Made by a program: the position numbers and the translations under genes. A model generated the notes under the pieces. The model made no database searches and was not told where the DNA came from. It was given only the letters and a program-made list of their open reading frames with translations. From Alcanivorax jadensis T9 (GTDB taxonomy: Bacteria > Pseudomonadota > Gammaproteobacteria > Pseudomonadales > Alcanivoracaceae), in NCBI RefSeq assembly GCF_000756655.1, contig NZ_ARXU01000017.1:1-64000 (forward strand): a stretch of DNA of 64,000 bases, written 5' to 3'. Each line of letters begins with the position of its first letter. The stretch's first letter is position 1. Positions 35,521 through 64,000 of the stretch are shown piece by piece.

Positions 35521-35584
35521 GTTGGAGCCTTGCTTGCAAGGCGAACGTGCTCTGAAATCTTCGCCTTGCGAGCAAGGCTCCAAC
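35521..35584. repeat. REP-like palindrome (GTTGGAGC variant)
   Basis: GTTGGAGCCTTGCTTGCAAG and its near-perfect reverse complement ending GCAAGGCTCCAAC flank a loop of about 14 bases, 27 bp after the fadB-like stop codon and 43 bp before the next gene. Confidence 0.8.
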
Positions 35585-35626
35585 AGCGGTTGCGAAGCAA
35601 AGAACAACCTTTAAAGAGGTTTAAAA

Positions 35627-62386: not shown

Positions 62387-63097
62387 TTAACTGACTTTGC
62401 CGGTGGTACGCACCCGCCGGCTGACCTTGGGTTCGTCGGAGGCCCTGGCTTTCTGGATGGCCTTGAGGCGCTTGTCGATCACGTTCTTGCCGGCGATGAT
62501 CAGGCCCAGGCCCACGAAGGCTCCCGGGGGCAGGATGGCGAACAGGAAGCCGCCGTAGTTTTCTACCACCTGAATCTGCCAGTCTGCCGCCATGGGGCCA
62601 AACAGCAACTGCATGTTGGTGAACAGGGTGCCCAGACCGATCAGCTCACGCATGCCGCCGAGAATCAGCAGGATCACCAGAAAACCCAGCCCCATCATGA
62701 AACCGTCCAGCGCCGCTGGCAGTACCGGGTTCTTGCTGGCAAAGGCGTCGGCACGGCCCAGCACGGTGCAGTTGGTGACGATCAGGGGAATGAAGATACC
62801 GAGGATTTCGTACAGCTCGAAGGTGAACGCCTGCATCAGCATTTCAATCACCGTCACCATGGCGGCGATGATCATCACGAAAGCGGGCAGGCGTACCGCA
62901 TCGGTCACGTACTGACGAATCAGCGACACGCAGATGTTGGAGCCCATCAGCACCACCAGGGTGGCCAGGCCCAGGCCCAGGGCGTTGACCACGGTGCCGG
63001 TCACCGCCAGCAGCGGGCACAGGCCGAGAATCTGCACGGTGGCCGGGTTGTTGTTCCACAGCCCGTCCAAGGCCAGTTCCCGATAGGATTTACTCAT
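62387..63097 (-). CDS. rnfE: Rnf electron transport complex subunit RnfE/RsxE
   Basis: A 236-residue membrane subunit with six hydrophobic helices; [31 protein letters not shown] and [18 protein letters not shown] are diagnostic. It is part of the ion-pumping ferredoxin:NAD+ oxidoreductase (or SoxR-reducing) complex in the inner membrane. The current start ATG 63097 (MSKSYRELA) is not the ancestral one: it belongs to the inserted element at 63071-63333, which also supplies the ribosome site GGAGGTGA. The original start was probably at 63363, overlapping rnfG. The sequence from LDGLW onward is intact. Confidence 0.95.
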
Positions 63098-63333
63098 TCA
63101 GTCACCTCCAAAATGGTCCAATGTGAGGCGTTTTCTTGAAGGAAGAGTGGGCCTCTTTCGAGAGGAAACAACGAAGCAGTGGGCCATTTTGGAGATGACC
63201 CGAAGGGCGACAAGCAGAGCTCGCATAGCTGTGTTATTTCGTCTTGGAATAGGCCCACTATGCCTGCGACGAAATGCCTTACTCTGCGAGCTCTGCTTGC
63301 CGCTGAATGAGTAAATCCTATCGGGAACTGGCC
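63071..63333. mobile_element. MITE-like element with 31-bp perfect terminal inverted repeats inserted in rnfE
   Basis: 263 bp. The ends 63071-63101 and 63303-63333 are exact 31-bp inverted repeats starting GGCCAGTTCCCGATAGG. Two internal hairpins follow: 63102-63120 with 63180-63198 (17 of 19 paired) and 63211-63225 with 63285-63299 (15 of 15), with further inner pairing (ATTTCGTC/GACGAAAT; CCTCT-TTCG-AGAGG). The whole folds as a three-way junction. It encodes no transposase and shows no obvious target duplication. It lies after codon 10 of the ancestral rnfE. No second copy is in this window. Confidence 0.85.
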
Positions 63334-63363
63334 CATGATCTTTTTGTAGTTCGCATCACTCAT
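63094..63363 (-). other. Displaced rnfE start fused to an open frame through the element
   Basis: From ATG 63363, which overlaps the rnfG stop by eight bases, a frame encodes MSDANYKKIM of ancestral rnfE, then runs open through the entire element for 89 codons ([16 protein letters not shown]...) and ends in a TGA at 63094-63096 that overlaps the new rnfE ATG in an ATGA arrangement. The product is probably meaningless, but its translation would couple rnfG to the restarted rnfE. Removing the element would join MSDANYKKIM to LDGLWNNNP, a normal RnfE N-terminus. Confidence 0.7.
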
Positions 63364-64000
63364 CACAACTCTCCACCGATACCGCTTCCGCCGGGGTGCT
63401 GAACACAGCGTCGCGGTTGGCGTCGAAATATTGCAGGGCACGGTGCACGGCCCCCACCACAGCACGGGGGGTAATGGTGGCGCCAGTAAAGCTGTCGAAC
63501 TGGCCGCCATCCTTTTTCACCGCCCAGCCGTCACTGGCAGGGTTGCCCAGAGACAGGCCATTGAAACCATCAATCCAGTCGGATTTTTTGGTTTCGATTT
63601 TATCGCCGAGCCCCGGGGTCTCATTGTGCGGTGGCACGACGCGCACTCCCTGAACCTTGCCTTGTGTATCCACGCCGACGATCAGGGCAATATTGCCACC
63701 GTAACCGTCCGGGGCGGTGGCTTCCAGTACGGCCCCATTGGGCTCGCCATCAAGACGCGCCCGGTAGACATGGTGGCCGTTGCGACCCAGCAGCGGGTCG
63801 CTGACGGTAAGACGGTCGGCGAGCAGATCATTATCGTGCTGCTCGTGGGGCATCACTTCGTTGAGCGATGCCATCAATGCGGCCTGCTTGTTGCACTCTA
63901 CCTTGCCGATGGTCAGCTCGTTGGTGATCGCCAGGGTAGCGGCGGTACCGATGGCGAACACGCTGAGGATCACCATATTCCGGGAGATGGCCTGGCGCAT
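63356..64000 (-). CDS. rnfG: Rnf electron transport complex subunit RnfG/RsxG
   Basis: 214 residues visible; a start codon lies exactly at the window edge (MRQAISRNMVILSVFAIGTA), so the gene is probably complete but the upstream signal is not seen. One N-terminal transmembrane helix is followed by a periplasmic FMN-binding domain with NIALIVGVDTQGKVQGVRVV, HNETPGLGDKIE and the flavin-attachment motif SFTGATIT (covalent FMN expected on Thr177). It transfers electrons within the Rnf complex. It lies directly upstream of the interrupted rnfE. Confidence 0.94.
   Translation of the reverse strand: MRQAISRNMVILSVFAIGTAATLAITNELTIGKVECNKQAALMASLNEVMPHEQHDNDLLADRLTVSDPLLGRNGHHVYRARLDGEPNGAVLEATAPDGYGGNIALIVGVDTQGKVQGVRVVPPHNETPGLGDKIETKKSDWIDGFNGLSLGNPASDGWAVKKDGGQFDSFTGATITPRAVVGAVHRALQYFDANRDAVFSTPAEAVSVESCDE

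Follow-up and report, generated by a model that had tools for sequence, protein, structure and literature searches.

At the end of the window (the whole stretch of 64,000 nucleotides of Alcanivorax jadensis T9 DNA that was analysed) a 263-bp element is found at the junction of rnfG and rnfE, where it separates the old rnfE start from codon 10 of the present rnfE reading (Table 1). An earlier note, made from the letters alone, had placed the element in this gene context, and TIGR01948 for rnfE and TIGR01947 for rnfG indeed score over their cut-offs. It had also seen no transposase in the element, in keeping with the lack of any Pfam or NCBIfam match for the frame across it. Letter-by-letter comparison of the terminal inverted repeats (TIRs) shows all 31 of 31 positions to be complementary, and both the extent and the complementarity given in the note are exact. 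The flanks of this copy contain no clear target duplication. Folding of both strands, which the note had suggested as a check on its proposed three-way junction, predicts a closed stem with two arms on each, with RNA minimum free energies of -157.2 kcal/mol (z -15.5) for the plus strand and -150.8 kcal/mol (z -14.5) for the minus strand, neither of which was equalled by any of 200 dinucleotide shuffles. The two arms described in the note (17/19 and 15/15 paired) are real, but their extent was drawn too short, each arm being ~96 nt long with interrupted inner stems. Inverting one of them shows that they are related, the alignment score being 43 and the highest of 500 shuffles 32.

Table 1. Features at the rnfG/rnfE junction, in coordinates of the window.
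Feature	Position	Strand	Evidence
rnfE as now read, 236 aa, start inside right TIR	62387..63097	-	ORF; TIGR01948 and NF009070 over cut-off
Whole element, MITE-like, 263 bp	63071..63333	-	TIRs pair 31/31; predicted fold at z about -15; site empty in 13 congeners
Right TIR (rnfE side), with ATG and codons 1-9 of present rnfE (MSKSYRELA)	63071..63101	-	Sequence; 4 changes relative to G006, synonymous in rnfE
Open frame from old rnfE start (MSDANYKKI...) across whole element to TGA overlapping new ATG (ATGA)	63094..63363	-	No Pfam/NCBIfam match
Shine-Dalgarno-like GGAGGTGA for present rnfE start (63097)	63102..63109	-	Sequence; buried in predicted fold
Conserved hairpin copy 2, inverted relative to copy 1	63103..63198	+	Model R2, 80.9 bits, E 2.2e-19 (window among the training sequences of R2)
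8-nt spacer separating the inverted hairpins	63199..63206	no strand	Gap between R2 matches
Conserved hairpin copy 1	63207..63302	-	Model R2, 91.6 bits, E 2.1e-22 (window among the training sequences of R2)
Left TIR (rnfG side), complementary to right TIR	63303..63333	-	Mirrors 4 right-TIR changes in G006; 1 further change there breaks a pair
rnfG, upstream gene, at the window's end	63356..64000	-	TIGR01947 and NF002519 over cut-off

Among 57 genomes (the source genome and its relatives) searched at the nucleotide level, three contain the element, all belonging to one genus: the source genome (G000), G006 (261 bases at 84% identity) and G013 (184 readable bases at 83%, the remainder reading N). 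All three copies sit at the rnfG/rnfE junction. This site is readable in 16 of the 17 genomes of the genus, the one left out (G009) having a short partial rnfE match only, and comparison of the junctions, also suggested in the earlier note, found the element in 3 and an empty junction in 13. The 13 empty sites encode the N-terminus that the note had expected of an element-free RnfE (MSDANYKKIM joined to LDGLWNNNP, 19 residues) or near variants of it, and five junctions examined in other genera are all empty. Occupancy is patchy across the genus (G000, G006 and G013 versus G001, G010, G005 and G015) and does not follow rnfE similarity. The rnfE of G001, which lacks the element, is 92.6% similar to that of G000 as compared to 84.2% for G006, so losses, transfer or two insertions have to be assumed. 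The exact sequence of the element and its TIR were seen at rnfE only in the nucleotide search of 57 genomes and in TIR pattern searches of limited reach, and the rnfE copy therefore looks immobile now. Among 46 genomes of the family, the G000 form of the TIR was matched, at up to three mismatches, in the source genome only, a search that missed even the G006 copy. A TIR search of 293 genomes of the order (a sample from which G006 and G013 are absent) gave single matches in four other genomes. The matches in G099 and G206 were rejected as element ends because they fall inside the frame of another protein with the chance reading SKSYREVA. Plasmid and phage records contained no match to the rnfE element.

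The note had described the element as inserted in rnfE, and insertion stands, but simple interruption does not, as the element supplies a new start that had been overlooked. Read from the sequence, the rnfE frame now opens within the right TIR, such that nine codons of the element (MSKSYRELA) are joined to LDGLWNNNP, and the element appears to bring its own ATG and Shine-Dalgarno-like GGAGGTGA. G006 is read in the same way, GGGAGTGA replacing GGAGGTGA. The frame from the old rnfE start is open through the element to the ATGA overlap in both G000 and G006, and in G013 for all of the readable part (70 codons). A conserved peptide encoded by this read-through frame was considered and rejected, pN (0.170) being equal to pS (0.166). 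Shuffling yields an open frame 191 and 126 times in 2000, and 1029 of 5000 simulated sets of mutations leave the frame open; since this is not very unlikely by chance it constitutes only mild evidence. In the whole predicted fold, the stretch from the Shine-Dalgarno-like sequence to the ATG has a mean unpaired probability of 0.009 in G000 and 0.073 in G006; taking away the upstream part, to mimic its occupation by a ribosome, raises these values to 0.24-0.29 and 0.22-0.45, respectively. The predicted ensembles give 0.19-0.29 for the rnfE starts at five of the 13 empty sites and 0.21 for the old rnfE start in G000.

Between G000 and G006, the right TIR has four differences (TAT/TAC, CGG/CGT, GAA/GAG and GCC/GCA), all of which are synonymous and each of which is matched in the left TIR; the latter has one additional change in G006 that breaks a pair. 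Using 103 pairs predicted from the G000 sequence, itself one of the two compared, 78 are unchanged, 12 have changed on both sides and still pair, and 5 have changed on one side and still pair, all to or from G-U in the mRNA sense. The remaining 8 pairs are broken (7 by one change and 1 by two), with 7 of the breaks in arm 2. Identity over the whole element is 84% (222 of 265 columns) versus 71.5% at rnfE third positions. Judged from these sequences, either selection or palindrome repair is maintaining the pairing of the TIRs. The earlier note had offered a mobile structured RNA as an alternative, which is not needed to explain mobility, although the maintained pairing leaves room for a role at the RNA level.

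The rnfE element is one member of a dispersed MITE-like family with a common build, consisting of a TIR of ~32 bp, a hairpin of ~96 nt, a short spacer, the hairpin in inverted orientation and the second TIR, ~265 bp in total. A search for copies, as the note had proposed, thus returned the exact sequence at rnfE only, but a dispersed family at the level of build, and these many relatives together with the 13 empty sites among 16 readable ones bear out the suggestion of a non-autonomous MITE-like element. The pattern said in the note to argue against mobility (the same 263 bp at the junction in all relatives and no copies elsewhere) does not hold, at the family level, on either count. In 111 loci, the best-scoring ones with duplicates kept (L067 and L135 are one place, as are L093 and L148), 188 hairpin matches make up 71 head-to-head pairs, no tail-to-tail pairs and 46 singles. 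Spacers are 6-11 nt in 69 of the 71 pairs and 23 nt in the other two. The whole elements read are mostly 261-273 bp in length, some being longer (286-300 bp), and have several end sequences that vary among subfamilies, including GGGAACCTCTGAATAA, GTGTCCCGTCTGG, GGGCCTGTTGACG, TAGTACTCC and others. The same tetranucleotide flanks both sides in some of the 71 pairs: CTAG (17) and TTAA (3), which are palindromic and hence indistinguishable from an extended TIR, CAAG (5, of which the L067 and L135 rows are one place) and TTAG (1). Some loci differ in build. L104 (G038:C22:346900-347900) has three directly oriented hairpin matches at 219-568, spaced 117 bases apart, a tandem array unlike the usual inverted pair. 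L095, L096, L097 and L098 in G053 are 161-165 bp long with a single hairpin match and the ends TATACCCATAGC, representing a one-hairpin form of the family. L070, L072, L081 and L099 (G030 and G019) are 286-300 bp long, one arm containing CCCCATTCGGGG or its complement, which is an indel within one subfamily.

A covariance model built from 5 arms (R1) matched 21 of the 57 genomes at E 0.1, including all three carriers. A second model built from 35 hairpins (R2) extended the family to 118 of 390 genomes (59 of 142 genera) in an order-level sample at E 1e-4, 97 of 281 genomes (82 of 218 genera) in a class-level sample at 1e-6 and 40 of 199 genomes (31 of 125 genera) in a phylum-level sample at 1e-6, with 15 of the 40 in other classes; the samples overlap and contain the source genome, so the counts are not additive. 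Hairpin counts per genome are lower bounds as 10 to 21 candidates were scored in each, and E-values are rough owing to brief calibration of the models, so that trust rests on scores, build and covariation. An alignment of 125 hairpins was drawn from 71 sources, among them the window, G006 and a weak match at window 35521, and was fitted to the model, a procedure that favours pairing. In it, 95.6% of cells are paired compared to 55.0% when shuffled and 34-43% when slid, and 1782 cells have changed on both sides compared to 507 when shuffled. Two of the five measures in this test are uninformative: 11 of 500 shuffles reach the value for pairs with a double change, and 338 of 500 that for further pair types. 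All measures stayed beyond the reach of 500 shuffles when a smaller alignment, of 42 matches (41 distinct), was used. The hairpin stems vary by compensatory change and the internal loops are fixed, with the conserved letters CAAGGCG on one side, AACGC on the other side and GCAGG.ATAGTGG near the tip, and a G-T pair on one strand is held in 78 of the 125 hairpins. Rfam returned nothing over its gathering scores at the window site and 14 loci, where matches were far below these scores or there were none at E 0.05. The weak R2 match (27.9 bits) at window 35521-35585 (plus strand) is an intergenic palindrome, GTTGGAGCCTTGCTTGCAAGGCGAAC..., and a similar palindrome, GTTGGAGCTTTGCTCGCAAAGCGAA, is present at L211:1126-1199 in the congener G010; this is perhaps another, REP-like repeat.

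At 15 further loci in the source genome, a free flank search found 11 enclosed by a 265-270 bp element and 4 by a shorter one (158-208 bp); of the 11, R2 detects both hairpins in 6 and a single hairpin in 5. One source-genome element, L239, has a counterpart at the corresponding position of G001 (97% across all 801 bases) and is absent from G005, where its flanks are 6 nt apart; G010 has a 124-nt stretch beginning and ending like the element. Full-length matches to L239 are present at other places in G001 (at least 6), G005 (at least 8), G010 (at least 7) and G012 (at least 6). These empty and occupied sites and additional places indicate, at the sequence level, that the family moves or has moved, with the responsible enzyme remaining putative. 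Plasmid records had no match to three family members and phage records none to one of these, and IMG/VR had no exact match to one strict core pattern, a narrow one found in 6 stretches of genome contigs.

As to the enzyme, IS5-type transposases (PF05598, E 0.001) are encoded in 10 of 18 hairpin-bearing genomes, the other 8 having no match, the source genome among them. In the congener G010 the end GGGAACCTCTGAAAAACT lies beside a PF05598 transposase and has 1 mismatch in 18 to the GGGAACCTCTGAATAACT ends of G030 copies, and 2 mismatches to the GGGAGCC form occurring in this genus. G509 has IS ends like GGGAACC with CTAG before both, and the only MITE read there (L166) has other ends. No transposase with the TIR of the rnfE copy itself was found, the IS5 link coming from another (GGGAACC) subfamily, and no hairpin match lies inside the IS loci in the 11 of 28 that were scanned, one weak match in L211 being outside the IS end. 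A transposase adjoining the copies was also sought in 106 loci and rejected: the largest ORF cluster (10 loci) comprises ORFs over the elements themselves, 8 of the 10 being flagged as overlapping elements and the coordinates of L120 and L126 placing them on elements too. Once ORFs over the elements are set aside, the largest cluster comprises 4 loci, and these correspond to a single place in three congeners, one of which was fetched twice; clusters with at least two loci numbered 92, the largest 8 of which were read. ORF lists were also read for ten stretches that surround lone or contig-end TIRs in G019 and G030, with one ORF searched against the libraries, and an IS may also be present there. 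The ORF searched, in L112 (G019:C49:1300-3500), encodes a REP-associated tyrosine transposase at 1438-2043 on the minus strand (NF047646, 194.5 bits; Y1_Tnp, 24.3 bits), ~1.2 kb from a lone TIR-like end, GGCGCCTCTGAATAACT, at 263. The case for IS5 is slightly weakened by this transposase and by the different ends in G509.

The element at rnfE shares its build with many dispersed copies, its site is empty in most congeners read, and the hairpin core of the family is conserved by covariation throughout the phylum while the ends differ. We consider it probable (roughly 70%) that the rnfE copy is an old, fixed MITE of a very widespread family with two inverted hairpins, that the rnfE start now lies in its right end and that coupling to rnfG has been kept. 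Members of the family would be moved in trans by IS5-family transposases recognizing their ends, and the rnfE copy is probably no longer able to move because its ends are now coding. According to the predicted fold, the closed stem would hide the new rnfE start. Ribosomes that arrive from rnfG and the old start of rnfE would translate through the element, open the stem, terminate at the ATGA overlap and reinitiate on rnfE. The coupling of rnfG and rnfE expected from the overlapping genes of relatives would thereby be kept despite the insertion, and such coupling by stem-melting ribosomes is likely and fits the modelled accessibility figures.

The main rival for the mirrored changes is template-switch repair, to which we assign a substantial chance, somewhat short of even. 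Long near-perfect palindromes are substrates of such repair, whereby template switching in replication copies one arm onto the other and mends the inverted repeats. The right TIR would then drift synonymously and the left be overwritten, preserving pairing without function, as expected from the exact mirroring of all four right-TIR changes in the left. However, the five pair-keeping one-sided changes are all G-U in the mRNA sense, which DNA repair would not favour, with the caveat that five is few and that one broken pair (G-C to A-C) would suit the opposite strand. It is less likely that the element is neutral debris, with rnfE translated from the new start, the stem incidental and the nine codons alone under selection. 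The read-through frame without peptide selection and the 8 broken pairs, mostly in arm 2, would suit this explanation, but the left TIR, which is outside rnfE, keeps pace with the right, and the element is better kept than rnfE third positions in the same two genomes. An ancestral part of the operon that was lost in many relatives, without any insertion, could account for rnfE similarity placing the carriers apart within the genus, but is very improbable considering the empty sites both in the genus (13 of 16) and in other genera, and the two-hairpin relatives at unrelated sites.

Other readings concern the family as a whole. A single-strand-acting enzyme, as for REP elements, might recognize the hairpin core, making the IS-like ends secondary. 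Phylum-wide conservation of the core loops with differing ends, the G-T pair held on one strand, the strict head-to-head order and the NF047646 enzyme near a TIR-like end in G019 all point in this direction. We nevertheless regard core recognition as improbable, as the other 251 loci (all short stretches) contain no relative of that enzyme, CTAG or TTAA flanks and IS5-like ends fit ordinary DDE transposition, and no outside protein cluster beside the 106 copy loci, among the largest clusters read, exceeds 4 loci. It is also doubtful, if a little less so, that the family is a phylum-wide mobile class whose identity is the inverted hairpin pair with fixed loops, read by some factor, and whose ends have been swapped repeatedly and served by different transposases; the rnfE copy would then be a working start whose stem couples RnfG and RnfE synthesis.

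With regard to our preferred reading of the rnfE copy as a fixed MITE, comparison to known systems is with the accessible parts of the cited sources. Prokaryotic IS-derived MITEs are <500 bp, have TIRs, dispersed copies and a stable transcript fold and lack a transposase (PMC10969869), features in common with the hairpin family; its covarying phylum-wide core with differing ends has no counterpart in the accessible part of that source. IS5-family IS (PF05598/DUF772) resemble it in ends such as GGGAACCTCTGAA, once preceded by CTAG at both ends, but carry a transposase, which the hairpin elements do not. REPINs and BIMEs similarly combine two inverted hairpins as one unit (PMC3116915, PMC2817692), REPs being 20-40 bp in length (PMC3733652), whereas the units here are ~96 nt inside TIRs of ~32 bp and fall outside what those sources, as far as accessible, describe as a REPIN unit. 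QMITE2 of Coxiella is likewise a MITE with a large stem also present in other proteobacteria, but as described in part of its source contains a GTAG REP and 7-11 nt direct repeats, setting it apart (PMC5896051). MITEAba12, at 111-114 bp with a weak fold according to the accessible text, was rejected because its build differs (PMC6382973). Rickettsia palindromic elements (RPEs) provide a precedent for palindromic elements becoming part of protein-coding genes, nearly half of those reported being inside genes as translational fusions (PMC10969869); at rnfE, in contrast, the end of the element supplies a new start. The literature searched, which mostly excludes subscription papers, contains no description of the hairpin family in its accessible parts, those of PMC4853749 and PMC2267715 included.

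We conclude that the hairpin family comprises MITEs with an unusual conserved core that is lacking from Rfam and from the literature covered, although ISfinder may list single members. The interior of a MITE is often taken as filler. In the hairpin family it is the interior that has been preserved, with strong covariation, from genus to genus and between families and classes, and the ends that vary, raising the question of what recognizes these hairpins. At rnfE, nature offers an example of a gene whose start was replaced by a mobile element, the two halves of the element's stem having since changed in concert.
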